DNA of 64,000 nt from Stackebrandtia nassauensis DSM 44728. GTDB lineage: Bacteria; Actinomycetota; Actinomycetes; Mycobacteriales; Micromonosporaceae. This document shows positions 25,400-34,562 of this stretch, one piece after another. The stretch lies in contig NC_013947.1 of NCBI RefSeq assembly GCF_000024545.1, positions 3,100,001 to 3,164,000 on the forward strand, given 5' to 3'. Position 1 is the first letter of the stretch, and every line of letters begins with the position of its first letter. The notes under the pieces were generated by a model, which was not told where the DNA came from, did not search any database, and saw only the letters and a list, made by a program, of their open reading frames with translations. Made by a program: the position numbers and the translations under genes.

Positions 25400-25516
25400 T
25401 CCACGCACCGATCGCTGAGAGCGACCGGATCGACACCCCACAGTCACGGCAACTGTGCCCCATCACCGCATCACTCGGTACGCCTTCGTGGCGATGCCCC
25501 CTGCCCGGAGGTGACC

Positions 25517-25966
25517 GTGCCCATGCCCACCCCCCGACCATCGCCCATCGGCCTCAGACTGTCACGGTTCGCCCTGGTCGGCCTGAGCTGCTTCGCGACC
25601 CAGGTCGTGGTCATGACCTGGCTTGCGGCCCTGGGCATGACACTGCCGCTGGCCAACGCGATCGGCTTCGTCGTGTCAGCCCAGGCCAACTTCGGACTCA
25701 GCGCCTGGTTCACCTGGGGCGACCGGCCCGCGCGTTCCCGCCCCCGGGTCCTGGCCCGCCGCTGGCTGTCCTATCAGGCCACCGCCGGACTGGCCCTGGT
25801 CGTCAACACCGTCACGTTCACCGTGGCGCTGCCCTCGGTGCCCCCGGTCATCGCTGCCGCCGCGGGAGTGGTGGTCGGTTCGGGCGTCACCTTCGTCGTC
25901 TGTCACTTCCTGATCTTCACCGCCGCTCCGCTGCGACGGCGCCTGCCAGCCGAGGAGACCCGCTGA
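25517..25966 (+). CDS. GtrA-like membrane protein (putative polyprenyl-phosphate sugar flippase)
   Basis: 149 residues with four hydrophobic segments (LVGLSCFATQVVVMTWLAA, LANAIGFVVSAQANFGLSAW, ATAGLALVVNTVTFTVAL, VVVGSGVTFVVCHFLIF) typical of the GtrA family. These proteins are thought to move lipid-linked monosaccharides across the membrane. I prefer GTG 25517, 5 nt after GGAGG (25507-25511); ATG 25523 is an alternative. The TGA overlaps the ATG of the next gene by 1 nt. Position beside a GT2/GT-C fusion supports a role in supplying sugar donors to the outer face. Confidence 0.85.
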   Translation: MPMPTPRPSPIGLRLSRFALVGLSCFATQVVVMTWLAALGMTLPLANAIGFVVSAQANFGLSAWFTWGDRPARSRPRVLARRWLSYQATAGLALVVNTVTFTVALPSVPPVIAAAAGVVVGSGVTFVVCHFLIFTAAPLRRRLPAEETR

Positions 25967-28329
25967 TGACCACGGAACTGCACCACCCGACGCGACAGCG
26001 CACCGCGGTCGCCGCCGCCATCGACGGCGTCGCCGTCGTCATGCCCGCCTACGGCGAGGAGGCCAACCTCGCCGCGACCGTCACCGACTTCCTGGACACA
26101 CTGGACGACGCCAGGATCCCGCACGCCGTGGTCGTGGTCAACGACGGCAGCACCGACCGCACCGGCGACGTCCTCGACTCACTGGCCAGACGCTATCCCG
26201 GCCGGGTCGTGGCCGTGCACCACGACCGCAACCGCGGCTACGGCGCGGCGGTGCGTTCCGGCCTGGACGCCGCGTTGCGGCACACCGAACTGGGCCAGAT
26301 CCTGCTCACCGACTCCGACCGGCAGTTCCACGCCGCCGATCTGCTGGAGTTGCGACGCCGCAAGGCCACCGAACGCGCCGACGCCATCCTGGGTTACCGG
26401 GAGCGCCGCGCCGACCCGTGGCATCGCCGCCTCAACGCCCGAGTGTGGACACTGCTGTGCAAGACGCTGCTGCGGCTGCCCGGCCGCGACGTCGACTGCG
26501 CCTACAAACTCATCGACCGCCGCCTGCTGGAGGAACTGAGCCTCACCGGTGAGGCCGCGGCGATCTCACCCGAACTGGTCAGCCGGATCACCGTGGACGG
26601 CAACCGGGTTGTGGAACACCCGGTGCGGCACTATCCGCGCACCCACGGCGAACAGACCGGCGCGCGGCTGTCGGTGGTGGCGCGGTCGCTGCTGAGCCTG
26701 GCCGGGGTCTACGCCAGACTCGTCCGCGACGCCCACCGGCTGGTGTGGCTGCGACGGCTGGCACGTCCGGCCAACCCGACCGCCGCCGTCGTCACCATCC
26801 TGGCGGCACTGCTGGCGGCCGCCGCCTATGTGTTCTATCTGGACCAGGGCGTTTTACTGGCCTACAAGGACGCCAACTCGCACCTGCTGATCGCGCGGCG
26901 CGTCGTGGCCAGTCCCACCGCCGGACTGGCCCAACTGGGCGGGGTGTGGCTGCCGCTGCCGCACCTGCTGTCGGCGCCGCTGGCGGCCTGGGAATCCTGG
27001 TACCTCAACGGTTTCGCCGGGGCCCTGATCTCGATGATCTCGTTCGTGCTGTGCGTGCGCTACCTGTACCTGCTGGGGGAGACGCTGACCCGCACCCGGC
27101 TGGGCGGCCTGGTCACGGCGGCGCTGTTCGCGGGCAACGCCAACATCCTGTACCTCCAGGCCACCGCGATGACCGAACTGCCGCTGTTCGCGTGCCTGGC
27201 CGCCGCGACTTACCACCTCGACCAATGGTGCCGGGCCGCCCGCAGCCGAGACCTGGCGGCCGCCTCGGTGGCGGTGCTGGCCGCGACCCTGACCCGCTAC
27301 GAGGGCTGGGTGTTCTGCGCCGCGGCACTGGTGATCGTGATCTATGTGGAGCTGCGGCGGCACCGCAGCTACTCCAGGACCGAGTCCTCACTGGTCATCT
27401 TCGGATTCCTGGCCTGCGCGGGAATCGCGGCCTGGCTGGTGTGGAACCTGGTGATCTTCGCCGACCCGCTGTACTGGCAGCGCGGCGAGTACGCCGAGTC
27501 CTCCCTGTGGGTGGACGGCAACGACGTCAACGTCGGCGAACTGGACATCGCCTCGGGCACCTACGGACTGGCGACGTACCACAACATCGGGCTCGTCACG
27601 CTCGCGATCGCGGCGGCGGGGATGCTGCTGTACCTGATCAGACACCGGATCCGACGCGAATGGGTGGCGATCTACCCGCTGCTGGGCTTCGGACCGTTCT
27701 TCGTGGTCGCGCTGTACACCGGGCAGCGACCGCTCAACGTCGTGGAGTACACCGGCCACTTCTACAACGTCCGCTTCGGACTCATCATGCTGCTGCCCGC
27801 CGCCGTCTTCGCCGGTTACCTGATCTCCGTGGGCGTCAGCGCGGTACGGCGGTTCCGGTTCCGGTCACTGCGGTGGACGGCGGTGGCCGTCGCCGTCCTG
27901 GTAACCGCGTTCGGCATCGCCACCGTGCCGGGGGTGGTCACCCTTCGCGACGCGGTGGAGTTCCGCGAGACCGACTGGGAGAACGCCGCGACCGCGCGCT
28001 GGCTGCGCGACAACCACGACGGCGACCTGACCCTCATGATGTCGTTCGCGAACGAGTCGGTCACCTACGACTCCCGCATCCCCACCGAATCGCTGGTCTA
28101 CGAGGGAACCTACCGGCTGTGGGAACGCGCACTGGCCGACCCGCACGCGCAGGGCATCGAATGGATCTACATGAGAGCCCTTCCCGACGCCGAGGACCTG
28201 GTGTGGCACGCGCTGTACGACACGCCGCAACTGGAGGACCACTACACGCTGGTCTACGAGTTCCACGACCGGCTGGTGTTCCGGTCCACAAAGGCACTGA
28301 CCGAGGAGTCGGAGGGCGAGGATGACTGA
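25966..28329 (+). CDS. Fusion of GT2 (dolichyl-phosphate-mannose-synthase-like) and GT-C membrane glycosyltransferase
   Basis: 787 residues. Residues about 20-255 are a GT2 domain with VVMPAYGEEANL, VVVNDGSTDRTGD and the metal-binding LTDSDRQF, which would make a polyprenyl-phosphate sugar. From about 270 there are roughly ten membrane segments. The first long loop begins DQGVLLAYKDANSHLLIARR, where GT-C enzymes keep an acidic motif (here YKDANSH), so this half should transfer a sugar from the lipid donor outside the cell. Donor synthesis and donor use are fused in one chain. The gene overlaps gtrA by 1 nt and the next gene by 8 nt. Confidence 0.82.
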   Translation: MTTELHHPTRQRTAVAAAIDGVAVVMPAYGEEANLAATVTDFLDTLDDARIPHAVVVVNDGSTDRTGDVLDSLARRYPGRVVAVHHDRNRGYGAAVRSGLDAALRHTELGQILLTDSDRQFHAADLLELRRRKATERADAILGYRERRADPWHRRLNARVWTLLCKTLLRLPGRDVDCAYKLIDRRLLEELSLTGEAAAISPELVSRITVDGNRVVEHPVRHYPRTHGEQTGARLSVVARSLLSLAGVYARLVRDAHRLVWLRRLARPANPTAAVVTILAALLAAAAYVFYLDQGVLLAYKDANSHLLIARRVVASPTAGLAQLGGVWLPLPHLLSAPLAAWESWYLNGFAGALISMISFVLCVRYLYLLGETLTRTRLGGLVTAALFAGNANILYLQATAMTELPLFACLAAATYHLDQWCRAARSRDLAAASVAVLAATLTRYEGWVFCAAALVIVIYVELRRHRSYSRTESSLVIFGFLACAGIAAWLVWNLVIFADPLYWQRGEYAESSLWVDGNDVNVGELDIASGTYGLATYHNIGLVTLAIAAAGMLLYLIRHRIRREWVAIYPLLGFGPFFVVALYTGQRPLNVVEYTGHFYNVRFGLIMLLPAAVFAGYLISVGVSAVRRFRFRSLRWTAVAVAVLVTAFGIATVPGVVTLRDAVEFRETDWENAATARWLRDNHDGDLTLMMSFANESVTYDSRIPTESLVYEGTYRLWERALADPHAQGIEWIYMRALPDAEDLVWHALYDTPQLEDHYTLVYEFHDRLVFRSTKALTEESEGEDD

Positions 28330-29752
28330 CGTCGACACCCGCGAGTTCAGCGCCCGGACCCTGTTCAGCCGGGGCCAGCGGATCACGCTGACGGTGATCG
28401 CGGCGGCGATCGCGATCCCGTTGGGGCTCAACCTGACCCTCGGCATCGGGCCCGAGCCACTGTGGTGGGGCCGGATGGCGATCGCGGCGACCGTGGTGCT
28501 GTACCTGGCGGTCATCGGTTTCAAACTCGCCATGATCGCCGGTTCGGGCCGCAGCAGCGCGCTGCACTTCGACCCCGGCAGCCTGACCGTGATCGCCGAC
28601 GCCGCCCTGCCGCCCTACACCGTGCTGGTGCCGCTGTACCGGGAGGCGACGGTACTGCCGACACTCGTGTCACGACTGTCGGCACTGGACTATCCGCGCG
28701 ACCGGCTACAGATCCTGCTGCTCATCGAGGCCGACGACGCCGAGACCCTGGACGCCGCCGTCACCTGCGCCACCGACCCGCGCTTCGAGATCGTCGTGAT
28801 CCCCGACTCGGTGCCCAAGACCAAACCCAAGGCCTGCAACATCGGCCTGGCCCGCGCCGTCGGCGAGTTCTGCGTCATCTACGACGCCGAGGACCGGCCC
28901 GACCCCGACCAGCTGCGCAAGGCGGCGCTGGCGTTTCGGCTGTCGCCGCAGCGGGTGGTGTGCGTGCAGGCCGAACTCCAGTACTGGAACCCCTGGACCA
29001 ACTGGCTGACCCGCTGCTTCGCCGCCGAGTACGCCACCAACTTCAGCATGACCCTGCACGGCATGGACCGCTACCGGCTGGCGATCCCGTTGGGCGGCAC
29101 CTCGAACCACTTCCGCACCGACGCGCTGCGCGCCCTGGGCGGCTGGGATCCCTACAACGTCACCGAGGACGCCGACCTGGGCATCAGGATCGCGCGCCGC
29201 GGCTGGGACGTGCGCATGATGGTGTCGGTGACCGAGGAGGAGGCCAACGCCCGGCTCGGCAACTGGCTGCGGCAGCGGTCCCGCTGGATCAAGGGCTACC
29301 TGCAGACCTGGCTGGTCCACTCCCGACGGCCCTACCGGCTGTGGCGCGAGGTGGGCACCCGACGCAGTCTGGCGGTGCACCTGACCCTCGGCTTCGCGAC
29401 GGTGACCACACTGGTCAACCCGGTGATGTGGGCGATGACGATCCTGTACCTGATCGTGGGTCCGCAACCGCTGGAACCCCTGTTTCCCAAGTACAACCTG
29501 TACGGCGGCGTGATCGCGATGCTGCTGGGCAACGCCTTGATGTGCTACACCCTGATGCTGGGCTGCGTCCGACGTGGACTGTTCGCGGCGGTGCGGGTGA
29601 TGCTGACCATCCCGCTGTACTGGGGACTGATGAGCCTGGCCGCCTACAAGGCGCTGATCCAGTTGCTGCGCCCCAGCAAACGGCACTACTGGGAACTGAC
29701 CGAGCACGGTCTGGTCCGTTCCGAAGACACAGTGGAGACCCACAATGTTTAA
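28322..29752 (+). CDS. Processive-type GT2 membrane glycosyltransferase
   Basis: 476 residues. Two N-terminal membrane segments, a cytoplasmic GT2 domain and about three C-terminal membrane segments. It has the D,D,D,QxxRW set: IEADDAETL, DAEDRPDP, TEDADLG and QRSRW (in LRQRSRWIKGYLQTW). This arrangement is shared with cellulose synthase-like and hyaluronan synthase-like enzymes, which make and extrude polysaccharides. The product is unknown. Start and stop overlaps of 8 nt on both sides tie it to the operon. Confidence 0.86.
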   Translation: MTDVDTREFSARTLFSRGQRITLTVIAAAIAIPLGLNLTLGIGPEPLWWGRMAIAATVVLYLAVIGFKLAMIAGSGRSSALHFDPGSLTVIADAALPPYTVLVPLYREATVLPTLVSRLSALDYPRDRLQILLLIEADDAETLDAAVTCATDPRFEIVVIPDSVPKTKPKACNIGLARAVGEFCVIYDAEDRPDPDQLRKAALAFRLSPQRVVCVQAELQYWNPWTNWLTRCFAAEYATNFSMTLHGMDRYRLAIPLGGTSNHFRTDALRALGGWDPYNVTEDADLGIRIARRGWDVRMMVSVTEEEANARLGNWLRQRSRWIKGYLQTWLVHSRRPYRLWREVGTRRSLAVHLTLGFATVTTLVNPVMWAMTILYLIVGPQPLEPLFPKYNLYGGVIAMLLGNALMCYTLMLGCVRRGLFAAVRVMLTIPLYWGLMSLAAYKALIQLLRPSKRHYWELTEHGLVRSEDTVETHNV

Positions 29753-32700
29753 ACGGATAGCCTTCGCCATTGTCATACTGCTGACCTCGGCGACACTGAC
29801 GGCCTCGACGGCCACCGCGGCCCCGCCCGCGGACTTCGACAAGACCCTCATCAGCGACGGCCTCAACGTCCCCACGGCGTTCCGCTTCGCCTCGGGCGGA
29901 AGGATCCTGGTCGCGGAGAAGGACGGCGCCATCCGGCTGATCGTCAACGGCGTCCTGCGTGCCGACCCGATGATCACTCTGTCCACGGCCGGGGCCGACG
30001 AGCGGGGACTGCTCGGCCTGGAACTGGATCCGGCCTTCGACACCAACGGCTATGTCTACGTCGGCTACACCCACACCGACAACCGCAACCGGCTCAGCCG
30101 CTTCACCGCCACGGGGTCCACCATCGACCCCGGCTCGGAACTGGTGCTGCTCCAGTCCGACCAGGAATCCAATGTGTTCCACCACGGCGGCGAGATCCGG
30201 TTCGCACCCGACGGCACCCTGTACTGGTCGCTGGGGATGAACACGATCAACGTCAACTCCGAGCAGCTGGGCAACCTGCACGGCAAGATCCACCGCATCA
30301 ACCCCGACGGCACGATTCCCGGCGACAACCCCTTCGCCGGGGTGCCCGGCGCCGAACCGTCCATCTGGGCCTACGGGCTGCGCAACCCGTTCCGCTTCGA
30401 CCTGATCGGCTCCGGCCCCAACGCCGGGCGGCTGTTGTCCGGCGACGTCGGTGGCTCGGCCTGGGAGGAGATCAACCTGATCGAACGCGGCGCCAACTAC
30501 GGCTGGCCGAAGGCCGAGGGCTTGTGCGACGGCTGCCCCTACGCCCAACCGGTCCACACCTACCCGCACACCGCCCCTCCGGCCAGCGCGGGATCGATCA
30601 CGTCGGTGGAGATCTACACCGGCGGCCAGTTCGGAAGCCAGTACGACAACGCGGTCTTCTTCGCCGACTACACCCTCGGCTTCATCAAATACCTCAAGAT
30701 GGACGACGAGTTCCGCAGCGTCATCTCCGTCAACGACTTCGACACCGCCGCGGGAACCCCGGTCCAGCTGACCACCGGACCCGACGGCGCGCTCTATCAG
30801 CTCAACATCTATCCCGGTGAGCTGTACCGGATCGCGCCCTCGGGCGGCAACCGCGCCCCCGAGGCCAAAGCCGCGGCGTCCCCCGACAACGGCCTGGCGC
30901 CGTTGCGGGTGCGGTTCTCCTCGGCGGGAAGCGACGACCCCGACAACGATCCGATCAGCTACCGGTGGGACTTCGGCGACGGCACCACCTCGACGCGCGC
31001 CAACCCGTCGCACACCTTCTTCAGGAACGGGAAGTACCAGGTCAAGCTGACCGTCAGCGACGGCACCAAGACCGACACCGCGACCGTGCCGGTCCAGGTC
31101 GGCAACCGCAGACCCAGCGCCACCATCACCGCCCCGGCCGACGGCTTCAAGTACGACGCGGGCGACACGATCTCCTTCGCCGGGACCGGAACCGACCCCG
31201 AGGACGGCAGGCTCGGGCCCGCGTCGATGTCATGGACGGTGATGTTCCACCACGCCGATCACGTGCACCCGTTCCTGGGGCCTGTGGACGGTGTCGCCTC
31301 GGGCGAGTTCACGATCCCCAGGGCGCCCGACAACCTGGCCAACACCTGGTACCGGATTCACCTGAAGGTCACCGACTCCGGCGGACTGACACGTTCCACC
31401 TATGTGGATGTCAAACCGAACCTGGTGACGCTGACGGTCAAGACCGGCACCCCGGGTCTGTCGTTCACCGTGGACGGCATCCCGCACAACGGAACCCTGA
31501 CCGAGACCGCGGTGGTGGGGGTGGAGCGCACCCTGGACGTCCCGCCGTTGCAGTACGCCAACGACACCCGCTACCAGTTCGCCAGCTGGTCGGACGGCGG
31601 CGACGCCGCGCACACCATCGTCACCCCCGAGCGCGACACCGTCTACACCGTGGACTTCACCGAACTGCCACGTCCGCCGGATCCGTGGGTCGAGACCAAC
31701 GTGGGTGCCCGGACCCAGGACGGATGGGCGTCCTACAAGGATGGAGAGTTCACCGTCAACGGCTCCGGGTGGGACATCTGGGACACCACCGACGAGTTCC
31801 ACTACGCCAACCGTCCACTGTCGGGCGACGGCCGGATCACCGCGCGGCTGACATCCCAGACCGACACCGACGACTGGGCCAAGGCCGGGGTCATGATCAA
31901 GGAGTCCACCCAGGCCGGTGCCCGTTATGCCGCCGTCGCGGTCACTCCCGACAACGGCGTCCGCATGCAGGCCAACTTCAACGAGGACGACGGCGGCTTC
32001 GCCTACCAACCCGGAAACGCCTGGCTGCGGCTGACCCGCAGCGGGGACACCTTCACCGCCGAGACCTCCGACGACGGAACCAACTGGACGAGGATCGGGA
32101 CCACGACCCTGACCATGGCCAAGGACGTGACGATCGGGCTGTTCTCCACCGCCCACGACAACACCGAGTTCTCCAAGGCGGTCTTCGACTCGGTGGACGT
32201 GTCGGGTGTGCCCGGTCCGGTCCCCGAACCGTGGACCTGCGGTGACGTCGGCGATCCGAGACTGCCCGGCTCGGCGGCCCACGAGAACGGGACCTTCACC
32301 ATCACCGGAGCCGGCGACGACATCTGGGCGACCTCCGACCAGTTCCACTACTGCCACCGGCAACTGGACGGCGACGGCCGGATCACCGCGCGCGTCACCG
32401 GACAGGCCGACACCGACGACTGGGCCAAGACCGGCGTGATGATGAAACAGTCCACACAGGCTGGTTCGCCGTACGTGGCGGCGTTCGTGACCCCGGAGCA
32501 CGGGGTGCGGACGCAGACCGGCTTCGACACCGACACGGCCGGAACCCAGACGGGCACACCCGCCTGGGTCCGGCTGGAACGCGTCGGTGACACCGTCACC
32601 GCCTACGAATCACCCGACGGTCAGCAGTGGACCGCGATCGCCACCGCGACACTGTCGGGCCCGGTGACCGTGGGGCTGTTCGTCACCTCCCACAACGGAA

Positions 32701-32834
32701 GCGTCCCCAACACGAGCACCCTCGACTCGGTCGACGTCGACGGCCCGGCGGAGGTGGAAGCGAGCTTACACAATGGAATGACGTCCGGATCCCGTGAAGA
32801 TCAAGGCTGTGGGCCCTTGATATTCGGGCCCTGA
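29745..32834 (+). CDS. Secreted glucose/sorbosone dehydrogenase-like protein with PKD and DUF1349-like domains
   Basis: 1029 residues. A signal peptide (about 1-26) is followed by a six-bladed sorbosone dehydrogenase-type propeller (about 35-360; GLLGLELDPAF, HHGGEIRFAPDGTLY, YGLRNPFRFD), which in relatives binds PQQ. A PKD domain (about 365-455, SYRWDFGDG) comes next, then a second beta domain, and two concanavalin-like DUF1349 repeats (about 645-820 and 825-1000; DDWAKAGVMIKEST and DDWAKTGVMMKQST). It is probably a cell-surface sugar-binding or oxidising protein acting on the polysaccharide made by the upstream genes. It overlaps the GT2 gene by 8 nt. Confidence 0.83.
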   Translation: MFKRIAFAIVILLTSATLTASTATAAPPADFDKTLISDGLNVPTAFRFASGGRILVAEKDGAIRLIVNGVLRADPMITLSTAGADERGLLGLELDPAFDTNGYVYVGYTHTDNRNRLSRFTATGSTIDPGSELVLLQSDQESNVFHHGGEIRFAPDGTLYWSLGMNTINVNSEQLGNLHGKIHRINPDGTIPGDNPFAGVPGAEPSIWAYGLRNPFRFDLIGSGPNAGRLLSGDVGGSAWEEINLIERGANYGWPKAEGLCDGCPYAQPVHTYPHTAPPASAGSITSVEIYTGGQFGSQYDNAVFFADYTLGFIKYLKMDDEFRSVISVNDFDTAAGTPVQLTTGPDGALYQLNIYPGELYRIAPSGGNRAPEAKAAASPDNGLAPLRVRFSSAGSDDPDNDPISYRWDFGDGTTSTRANPSHTFFRNGKYQVKLTVSDGTKTDTATVPVQVGNRRPSATITAPADGFKYDAGDTISFAGTGTDPEDGRLGPASMSWTVMFHHADHVHPFLGPVDGVASGEFTIPRAPDNLANTWYRIHLKVTDSGGLTRSTYVDVKPNLVTLTVKTGTPGLSFTVDGIPHNGTLTETAVVGVERTLDVPPLQYANDTRYQFASWSDGGDAAHTIVTPERDTVYTVDFTELPRPPDPWVETNVGARTQDGWASYKDGEFTVNGSGWDIWDTTDEFHYANRPLSGDGRITARLTSQTDTDDWAKAGVMIKESTQAGARYAAVAVTPDNGVRMQANFNEDDGGFAYQPGNAWLRLTRSGDTFTAETSDDGTNWTRIGTTTLTMAKDVTIGLFSTAHDNTEFSKAVFDSVDVSGVPGPVPEPWTCGDVGDPRLPGSAAHENGTFTITGAGDDIWATSDQFHYCHRQLDGDGRITARVTGQADTDDWAKTGVMMKQSTQAGSPYVAAFVTPEHGVRTQTGFDTDTAGTQTGTPAWVRLERVGDTVTAYESPDGQQWTAIATATLSGPVTVGLFVTSHNGSVPNTSTLDSVDVDGPAEVEASLHNGMTSGSREDQGCGPLIFGP

Positions 32835-32843
32835 TCCACTTGG

Positions 32844-34562
32844 ATGGACAGTACGCGCGTCCTGACGCTGCGACGTCGGGCGTGCGGTACCCCGCCCCCG
32901 AACGACAGGAGCCGGATCATTACTACGCAAGATCGTCAAGATTTCGGAGAAGACCCGCTCACGGTTCGCGATACGGATCACTACAAGGACGAGTACGTCA
33001 CCGGGTTCGTCGAGAAGTGGGACGACCTGATCGACTGGAAGGCCCGCTACGCCAGCGAAGGCCGCTTCTTCATCGATCAGCTCAAGGAACGGGGCGTCAA
33101 GACCGTCCTGGATGTGGCCACCGGCACCGGATTCCACTCGGTGCGGCTGGTGGAGGAGGGCTTCGAGACCGTCAGCGCCGACGGCAGCCCCGAGATGCTC
33201 GCCAAGGCCTTCGCCAACGGCCTCAAACACGGCGGGCACATCCTGCGCGTCGTGCACGCCGACTGGCGCTGGCTCAACCGCGACGTCCACGGCACCTACG
33301 ACGCCATCATCTGCCTGGGCAACTCCTTCACCCACCTGTTCTCGGCCCGGGACCGCCGCAAGGCGCTGGCGGAGTTCTACGCGATGCTCAAGCACGACGG
33401 CGTGCTGATCATCGACCAGCGCAACTATGACGCGCTCCTGGACGGTGACTACGGCAACAAGCACGTGTACTACTACTGCGGCGACGACGTCACCGCCGAA
33501 CCGGAGTATGTGGACGAAGGGCTGGCGCGGTTCCGCTACACCTTCCCCGACAAGTCCCGGTACCACCTCAACATGTTCCCGCTGCGCAAGGAATACGTGC
33601 GCAGACTGATGCGCGAGGTGGGTTTCCAGCGGATCGACACCTACGGCGACTTCCAGGAGACGTACCACGGCGACCAGCCGGACTTCTACATCCACATCGC
33701 CGAGAAGGCCTACCACTTGGAGGAACGACGCGTGGACAGATACTCCCCGGCGGTCCAGACGGCCCGCGACTACTACAACTCCTCGGACGCCGACAACTTC
33801 TACCACACCATCTGGGGCGGCAACGATATCCACATCGGGATATACGAGCCGGGTGACGGCGACATCGCCGCCGCCAGCCGCCGCACCGTGGAGAAGATGG
33901 CCTCACGGCTGGAACTGGACGAGAACTCCCGGGTCATCGACCTCGGTTCCGGCTATGGCGGCTCCGCCCGGTACCTGGCCGCCACCTACGGATGCCAGGT
34001 CACCTGTCTCAACCTCAGCGAGGTCGAGAACACCCGCAACCGCGAGGCCAACCAGCAGGCGGGCCTCGACCATCTCATCGACGTCCTGGACGGCTCGTTC
34101 GAGGAGATCCCGGTACCCGACAAGGACTTCGACGTCGTGTGGTCCCAGGACGCCATACTCCACAGTGGCGACAGGGTGCGGGTGCTCGAGGAGGTCGCGC
34201 GGGTGCTGCGCACCGGCGGCGCCTTCGTGTTCACCGACCCGATGGCCGCCGACAACGCCGATCGCGAGGTGCTGCGCCCGATCCTCAAGCGCCTGGACCT
34301 CGACAGCATGGGCACTCCCGGTTTCTACGAACGCGAGTGCGCCGGGCAGGGTATGGCCAAGGTGGACTACGAGGACCTGCTGCCGCACCTGTCCACCCAC
34401 TACGCCGCGGTGCTCGCCGAGACCGAGCGCCGGGAGGCCGAACTGCTCAAGGACGTCAGTCCCGAGTACCTGGAGCGGATGAAGACCGGCCTACAGCGGT
34501 GGGTCGACGGTGGACACTCCGGCGACCTGGCCTGGGGCGTCTTCCACTTCACCAAACGCTGA
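32844..34562 (+). CDS. Fused glycine/sarcosine N-methyltransferase and sarcosine/dimethylglycine N-methyltransferase
   Basis: Up to 572 residues. It converts glycine to glycine betaine by three SAM-dependent methylations, for osmoprotection. The N-terminal GSMT half has VLDVATGTGFHS, FEYGVSADG-like SADGSPEML and EYVRRLMREVGFQRI. The C-terminal SDMT half (from about 310) has VIDLGSGYGGSARYLA and WSQDAILHSGDR. Both SAM motifs are intact. Coordinates start at ATG 32844, which has no ribosome site. The sequence better supports an ATT start at 32919, with AGGAG (32907-32911) 7 nt upstream, just before the conserved QDFGEDP. It stands alone, followed by a terminator. Confidence 0.92.
   Translation: MDSTRVLTLRRRACGTPPPNDRSRIITTQDRQDFGEDPLTVRDTDHYKDEYVTGFVEKWDDLIDWKARYASEGRFFIDQLKERGVKTVLDVATGTGFHSVRLVEEGFETVSADGSPEMLAKAFANGLKHGGHILRVVHADWRWLNRDVHGTYDAIICLGNSFTHLFSARDRRKALAEFYAMLKHDGVLIIDQRNYDALLDGDYGNKHVYYYCGDDVTAEPEYVDEGLARFRYTFPDKSRYHLNMFPLRKEYVRRLMREVGFQRIDTYGDFQETYHGDQPDFYIHIAEKAYHLEERRVDRYSPAVQTARDYYNSSDADNFYHTIWGGNDIHIGIYEPGDGDIAAASRRTVEKMASRLELDENSRVIDLGSGYGGSARYLAATYGCQVTCLNLSEVENTRNREANQQAGLDHLIDVLDGSFEEIPVPDKDFDVVWSQDAILHSGDRVRVLEEVARVLRTGGAFVFTDPMAADNADREVLRPILKRLDLDSMGTPGFYERECAGQGMAKVDYEDLLPHLSTHYAAVLAETERREAELLKDVSPEYLERMKTGLQRWVDGGHSGDLAWGVFHFTKR
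32907..32921 (+). promoter_or_regulatory. Shine-Dalgarno site pointing to an ATT start codon in the betaine methyltransferase gene
   Basis: AGGAG at 32907-32911, spacer of 7 nt, then ATT ACT ACG CAA at 32919. No ATG, GTG or TTG lies at a workable distance in frame. Confidence 0.5.

Follow-up and report, generated by a model that had tools for sequence, protein, structure and literature searches.

A four-gene operon was identified in a 64,000-nucleotide stretch of the Stackebrandtia nassauensis DSM 44728 chromosome (contig NC_013947.1, positions 3,100,001 to 3,164,000 of the forward strand), hereafter the window, in whose coordinates positions are given. The operon encodes a GtrA-like membrane protein, a 787-aa chain joining a donor synthase of glycosyltransferase family 2 (GT2) to a transferase of the GT-C fold, a membrane-embedded GT2 synthase of the cellulose-synthase type (P0003), and a secreted-looking protein (P0004). 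We see about an even chance that the operon produces a synthase-dependent exopolysaccharide, probably beta-mannan-like, that is side-glycosylated outside the cell by a three-component system encoded in the same operon.

The GT2/GT-C fusion and its operon

The features of the operon are as follows:

25511..25966, + strand: small GtrA-like membrane protein, the proposed lipid-linked-sugar flippase (Pfam GtrA_DPMS_TM; E value, 7.5e-16)
25966..28329, + strand: 787-aa fusion of two enzymes, a GT-C transferase preceded by a predicted polyprenyl-phosphate-sugar synthase (GT2) (Pfam, structure model, relatives)
26020..26727, + strand: GT2 head of the fusion, approximately residues 19-254, with NDGS and DSD motifs (fold, motif table)
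26758..28326, + strand: GT-C half of the fusion, residues 265-787 (fold; D302 codon at 26869-26871)
28322..29752, + strand: P0003, predicted processive, membrane-embedded GT2 synthase, cellulose-synthase-like (Pfam Glyco_trans_2_3, motifs, structure model)
29745..32834, + strand: P0004, secreted-looking protein with propeller, PKD and DUF1349 parts (Pfam, residue check)

The original prediction had described four overlapping genes, among them a processive synthase, a GtrA partner and a single chain uniting GT2 with GT-C. Overlaps of 1, 8 and 8 nt between successive genes were confirmed on the sequence, the domains were assigned by Pfam, and each of these components was borne out by its domains, motifs or fold. 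The GtrA gene has three candidate starts (GTG at 25511, GTG at 25517 or ATG at 25523). No hydrolase gene was found among the four genes by Pfam scan, and a BcsB-like gene was also absent among them.

Pfam analysis of the fusion placed Glycos_transf_2 at residues 24-191 and PMT_2 at residues 348-493. A structure model built from 23 sequences (mean predicted local distance difference test score (pLDDT), 80.5; predicted template modeling score, 0.74) displayed two domains, and both halves folded as had been expected. In this model, the head (residues 17-266) resembled dolichyl-phosphate mannose synthase (DPMS) 5mlz (Z 25.3, 225 residues, 2.5 Å), ArnC 9bhe (Z 24.7, 221 residues, 2.3 Å) and GtrB 9nyd (Z 22.5, 210 residues, 2.2 Å). 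The GT-C half, from approximately residue 268, resembled oligosaccharyltransferase (OST) 8agb (Z 26.7, 435 residues, 5.2 Å), Pmt4 9i5l (Z 25.4, 347 residues, 3.8 Å), ArnT 5ezm (Z 23.7, 425 residues, 4.5 Å) and AftB 9dlh (Z 20.3, 430 residues, 5.2 Å). Foldseek with the fusion model likewise listed both donor-synthase-type and GT-C-type structures. The profile of the GT-C half had zero matches to PDB sequences at E 1. Simple hydropathy gave approximately eight distinct membrane segments in this half, where ten helices had been predicted, and the model adds several short helices. Membership of a known arabinan or teichoic-acid pathway was rejected, as AftB and ArnT match through the shared GT-C fold and Pfam names none of the four genes as an arabinan or teichoic-acid gene. 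The NCBIfam names PpgS and ArnC were not used for the head, which scored far below their cut-offs.

The key residues of both halves are conserved. Aspartate D302, located soon after the first membrane helix, was unchanged in 24 of 24 aligned rows and, by analogy, may be the catalytic acid of the GT-C half. The head motifs (N/D)DGS and DxD were present in 18 of the 19 rows with a head. The exception is a Nonomuraea protein (L045:9935-12187) whose head lacks both DDGS and DxD, yet whose GT-C half retains D302; neither a GtrA match nor a GSDH gene was found in the stretch examined at this locus.

The fusion is a genuine single chain. A pattern scan of genome contigs, which reaches close relatives only, yielded 32 pattern matches, and 11 loci among them were confirmed (eight from Glycomyces and one each from Catellatospora vulcania, a Streptosporangiaceae bacterium and Bailinhaonella). 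The fusion matched near full length in all 11, and an assembly or frameshift artefact was therefore rejected. In addition, 17 of 300 family genomes, the window's own included, had strong GT-C matches in frames of at least 772 codons without internal stops, the presence of the head being verified in the loci retrieved. Thus, the 787-aa chain recurs in relatives and does not split into two genes. Full-length fusion matches were also present in two of 60 other family genomes, among the matches listed, and in a plasmid collection one record among 144, from Nonomuraea gerenzanensis, covered 80% or more of the query.

Gene order and distribution of related loci

Related loci, in which genes were called by our own GC-based script with approximate starts, were sorted by gene order into classes A to F, defined in this analysis:

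Class A: [GtrA]-[GT2+GT-C]-synthase-[GSDH/PKD/DUF1349]; 16 loci inspected, window included
Class B: GT2+GtrA chain, synthase, separate GT-C; ten loci (L102-L108 by Pfam, L117-L119 by BLAST)
Class C: synthase-[GT2+GT-C+GH5]; three loci, with three-domain chains at L046:8091-11369, L095:5893-9114 and L096:6162-9371
Class D: synthase-GH113-GT-C; five loci, six copies
Class E: mycobacterium-like loci, synthase and GT-C
Class F: N-terminally extended synthase and GT-C

GH5 and GH113 are glycoside hydrolase (GH) families. Of the 16 class A loci, 14 have the full four-gene set of the window side by side, which is clustering beyond chance. Outside the window, 13 of 15 class A loci have a GtrA relative immediately before the fusion, and the secreted gene and GtrA co-occur in all 14 loci having either. 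The two remaining loci, L043 and L045, are without both. The operon had been called self-contained, which is too strong: these two loci lack an adjacent GtrA while the synthase/GT-C pair is still there, and in one of them the GT2 head motifs are lost. Upstream of the class A operon at L042 (L042:2717-6414) there is a GtrA-containing protein with a partial GT2 domain, together with a further PMT_2 gene.

In class B, GT2 is joined to GtrA instead of GT-C in all ten loci (seven by Pfam, three by BLAST), and a GSDH/PKD protein was found in nine, with none for L103 in the stretch examined. The same list of functions therefore occurs in classes A and B with different pairs fused, which is a usual sign that the parts work together. 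A GT-C tree of 44 rows placed every one of the classes A to F on its own side of a branch with Shimodaira-Hasegawa-like approximate likelihood-ratio (SH-aLRT) support of 98-100, and A, C and D grouped together; it was built by a quick method with a midpoint root and a warning of long branches. As the head is fused to GT-C in A and C and absent in D, either a single gain followed by a loss or two gains would account for its distribution.

The adjacency of synthase and GT-C bears on two other explanations. In the first, which we judge unlikely, GtrA and the fusion would be an ordinary three-component system decorating another wall polymer, such as a teichoic-acid-like one, and the synthase would be a neighbor with its own product. 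Gtr-type systems with these parts decorate lipoteichoic acid, wall teichoic acid and O antigen (PMC13390465, PMC11127046), but synthase and GT-C are neighbors within each of classes A to E, and also in two of the three class F loci, amid differing other genes; the third class F locus ends at a contig end. In the second, which seems quite unlikely, the GT-C half would be a protein O-glycosyltransferase acting on the secreted protein of the same operon, with the synthase either extending the glycan or being separate. Both the model, in which the GT-C half is at least as like Pmt4 and OST as ArnT, and the 14/14 co-occurrence of the secreted gene with GtrA would suit it, whereas classes C and D keep the synthase and GT-C together with mannanase-type hydrolases and have no GSDH gene in the stretch.

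The GT-C profile (E 1e-10) matched 38 places in 35 of the 300 family genomes, and the neighbors of 22 of these places, window included, were inspected. It also matched 13 of 396 phylum genomes, own included; 11 of the 12 non-own genomes were retrieved, and the GT-C gene was recovered by the gene caller in nine, the two others being L063 and L067. The window's genus was represented by four further genomes in the 300-genome set, all without a match, and the operon is therefore patchy even within its own genus.

A P0003 relative lies within 3 kb of GT-C in 37 of the 38 GT-C places, and conversely a GT-C match stands beside the P0003 relative in 37 of 49 P0003 places. Among the other 12, three are class B loci in which GT-C was just under the threshold on inspection, and at L120 no synthase gene was called. 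The remaining eight (L109-L116) encode longer synthases (613-651 aa) whose N-terminal part matches MshEN, above the Pfam cut-off in seven and below it in L113, and perhaps represent a branch linked to cyclic di-GMP (c-di-GMP). The regular presence of one GT-C beside the synthase could also be read as priming, in which the GT-C half would place one sugar on a lipid or protein acceptor that then bears the synthase product, instead of decorating it. The window operon, which has no second side-chain enzyme, would agree with such a role. To our knowledge, characterized synthases of the BcsA-like fold of P0003 need no lipid primer, and we hold priming or anchoring to be distinctly improbable.

Several loci show further arrangements. 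In class D, GH113 and GT-C form a single 892-aa chain at L099:7904-10582, and the whole set occurs twice in tandem at L101:7458-16589. The synthase and GT-C of the mycobacterium-like locus L061:6051-12543 are flanked by genes that we take to be ribosomal protein genes. One gene of L061 had a weak BcsB-like match below the Pfam cut-off, the counterpart gene in L066 had no such match, and the L061 match was not used as support. A synthase and a GT-C relative flank an exosortase-type gene at L064:3411-5120, a locus from a distant member of the phylum. In the window itself, the next gene downstream of the operon (32844-34562) encodes two methyltransferase domains, presumably similar to the glycine/sarcosine methyltransferases of betaine synthesis.

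The synthase, its probable polymer and the secreted protein

P0003 carries the signature DD, DAED, TED and QxxRW (QRSRW in P0003), whose key residues were invariant in 29 of 29 aligned rows, P0003 included. Its model (pLDDT, 90.2) has a BcsA-like fold, and VIA-align placed the mannosyltransferase PcManGT (Z 30.2, 340 residues, 3.7 Å) ahead of BcsA (Z 26.9, 383 residues, 3.6 Å). The earlier description of a processive GT2 with D,D,D,QRSRW thus agrees with both the alignment and the modeled fold, from which processive activity of this membrane GT2 is predicted. No PilZ domain (the c-di-GMP receptor) was found on P0003 by Pfam scan; PilZ is missing from some synthase-dependent exopolysaccharide synthases. 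The NCBIfam names CelA, MftF and PRK14716 were not used for P0003, since all were far below their cut-offs (CelA being the best).

Indications of the polymer come from hydrolases encoded in related loci; this link to beta-mannanases was not part of the original prediction. The C-terminal GH5 domain of L046 (class C) was above the Pfam cut-off, and the corresponding parts of L095 and L096 are 57-58% identical to it. The class C GH5 domain, searched for one locus, had 16 PDB matches, of which 15 are named mannanase or mannosidase and the 16th, 1uuq, is named both glucosidase and Man5A. In class D, GH113 was above the Pfam cut-off in six of six copies, and all seven PDB matches of the L097 GH113 are named beta-mannanase. 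The putative catalytic glutamates are retained in three of three GH5 and six of six GH113 sequences. In class E, a 372-aa gene directly beside GT-C (L066:5725-6843) had a weak GH5 match (E value, 3e-4) and two PDB matches (E values, 1.4e-6 and 5.9e-4), both beta-mannanases. A gene fragment in L062, suspected to be a hydrolase, had no Pfam or PDB match.

Because beta-mannanase-type hydrolases occur in three other locus classes, the backbone may be a beta-linked mannose-type polymer, namely mannan, glucomannan or a polymer of N-acetylmannosamine (ManNAc), a proposal that we believe and doubt in about equal measure. These hydrolases, together with PcManGT being nearest in one of two aligners, hint indirectly at a mannose-type synthase. 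Mannose and ManNAc are not separable for the backbone. In earlier reports, the same hydrolase-to-polymer logic was used to read a Clostridioides difficile BcsA-like locus with GH113 as producing a ManNAc polymer (PMC7710045), and NfrB was proposed to use UDP-ManNAc (PMC8669469).

Several observations weigh against a decorated mannose-type product. Foldseek on the P0003 model put BcsA first and PcManGT tenth, the lead of PcManGT in VIA-align may be partly an effect of chain length, and the best NCBIfam and PDB sequence matches of P0003 are cellulose synthases. The GH5 matches of L095, L096 and L066 were all under the Pfam cut-off. Among 53 sequences searched in all, neither GH5 nor GH113 was found at E 1e-3 in the window or in any stretch of class A or B, and the enzymes encoded by scanned class A neighbors act on other glycans (GH43, rhamnogalacturonan lyase). 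Classes C and D had no GtrA match alongside, and class D had no donor-synthase head either, which implies that GT-C can use a pool made elsewhere. Eight of the 12 P0003-related places outside the GT-C pairing, L109-L116, have no detected GT-C among their called genes. Finally, acceptor, sugar and linkage are not readable from sequence.

P0004 begins with a signal-like stretch, as judged by eye, and contains a GSDH propeller (residues 40-354; Pfam E value, 1.8e-48), a PKD domain (residues 369-449) and DUF1349 in two stretches. The propeller is 67-70% identical to its relatives in class A and 43-45% identical in class B. The secreted protein of L105 has four PA14 stretches in place of DUF1349, and L117-L119 match L105 there. 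The last approximately 30 residues of P0004 (window 32740-32834) have no counterpart in the relatives, which run longer and carry a further DUF1349-like repeat.

The propeller raises the idea that P0004 is a pyrroloquinoline quinone (PQQ)-dependent sugar dehydrogenase and the operon product an oxidized polysaccharide. The strong GSDH match and the retained (H)HxG and (L/F)RN stretches speak for such an enzyme. In 22 of 22 rows from 20 distinct loci, however, the Arg-x-Arg stretch of the solved relatives 2g8s and 7cdy is replaced by Pro/Val plus an acidic residue or Gln. These two arginines, which lie toward the C-terminal end of the propeller, presumably provide the PQQ ligands of those two proteins, and because they are missing, oxidation by P0004 is unlikely; we rate the dehydrogenase explanation as very improbable. 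The PKD plus DUF1349 or PA14 parts, taken with the missing arginines, fit a binding role better, and binding is likelier than oxidation as the role suggested by the P0004 sequence. The initial proposal that the secreted protein binds or oxidizes the polymer is accordingly not supported in its second half, while decoration by lipid-delivered sugar remains consistent with the conserved operon.

Comparison with known systems and proposed mechanism

The closest parallel is the three-component Gtr/GtcA system, which consists of a donor synthase of the DPMS/GtrB fold, a GtrA-type protein and a GT-C transferase (PMC11127046, PMC13390465). The corresponding features, namely a GT2 with DSD, a GtrA gene and a putative GT-C whose first membrane helix is followed by an acidic residue, were recognized here from domains, motifs and models. 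In contrast to three separate proteins, donor synthase and GT-C are one 787-aa chain in the present operon, in which a predicted processive synthase and a secreted protein of glycan-binding-like type are encoded as well.

P0003 shares with the synthases of the Bcs, Ccs and Nfr exopolysaccharide operons a membrane GT2 with DxD, TED and QxxRW and a BcsA-like fold (PMC7710045, PMC8669469). A hydrolase adjoins the synthase in related loci of the present system, as it does in those operons; here, PilZ was not found, there is no BcsB-like gene, and a probable lipid-linked decoration system is added. The C. difficile 630 locus combines a BcsA-like synthase with GH113 and WecB and was proposed to make a ManNAc-rich polymer, but the accessible portion mentions no GT-C, and no hydrolase belongs to the window operon (PMC7710045). 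In Lactobacillus johnsonii, the glucan exopolysaccharide EPS1 depends on a protein resembling GtrA and on a putative bactoprenol glycosyltransferase (241-242, GtrA-GtrB), whereas a fused GT-C, a synthase and a secreted partner are not named in the part seen (PMC7117936). The gsf cluster of Actinoplanes missouriensis is a GtrA-dependent glycosylation cluster in an actinomycete; its gene set differs, and its membrane transferase is not of the GT-C fold according to its authors (PMC13390465).

The original prediction knew of no described system with this exact set, and the literature found gave no description of it either. The gene set is not described in the accessible text of PMC13390465, PMC7710045, PMC8669469, PMC7112168, PMC7112194, PMC11127046 or PMC7117936; subscription papers were mostly outside this coverage, and the absence is weak evidence.

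In the proposed mechanism, P0003 would polymerize a nucleotide sugar, and its own membrane helices would be the route by which the chain is threaded to the outside. At the inner face, the GT2 head would load a sugar onto polyprenyl phosphate, as its domain and motifs suggest, and GtrA is proposed to carry the lipid-linked sugar across the membrane. The GT-C half, with the topology predicted here, would then attach this sugar outside the cell as a side group to the chain as it emerges. Fusion of the donor synthase to the transferase would hold the decoration machine together, and the secreted propeller/PKD/DUF1349 protein would bind the product at the surface without oxidizing it, as its missing residues suggest.

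If this mechanism is true, synthase-dependent chain export and lipid-linked side-chain addition, which are usually treated separately, would be combined in one small operon, and the fusion would be a natural example of one chain linking a donor synthase at the cytoplasmic face to a transferase at the outer face, enzymes that are normally apart. It would also predict a mannanase-sensitive, branched actinomycete surface polymer, for which no description was found. The four-gene set is small enough for transfer to a laboratory host. More tentatively, and with doubt prevailing, actinomycetes might make a substituted beta-mannan, using a cellulose-synthase-like enzyme for the backbone and a chimera coupling both membrane faces to branch it outside from polyprenyl-phosphate sugar, with related loci exchanging a mannanase and a propeller protein that bears carbohydrate-binding-like modules. 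Such a polymer, if it exists, would be a bacterial counterpart of plant hemicellulose.

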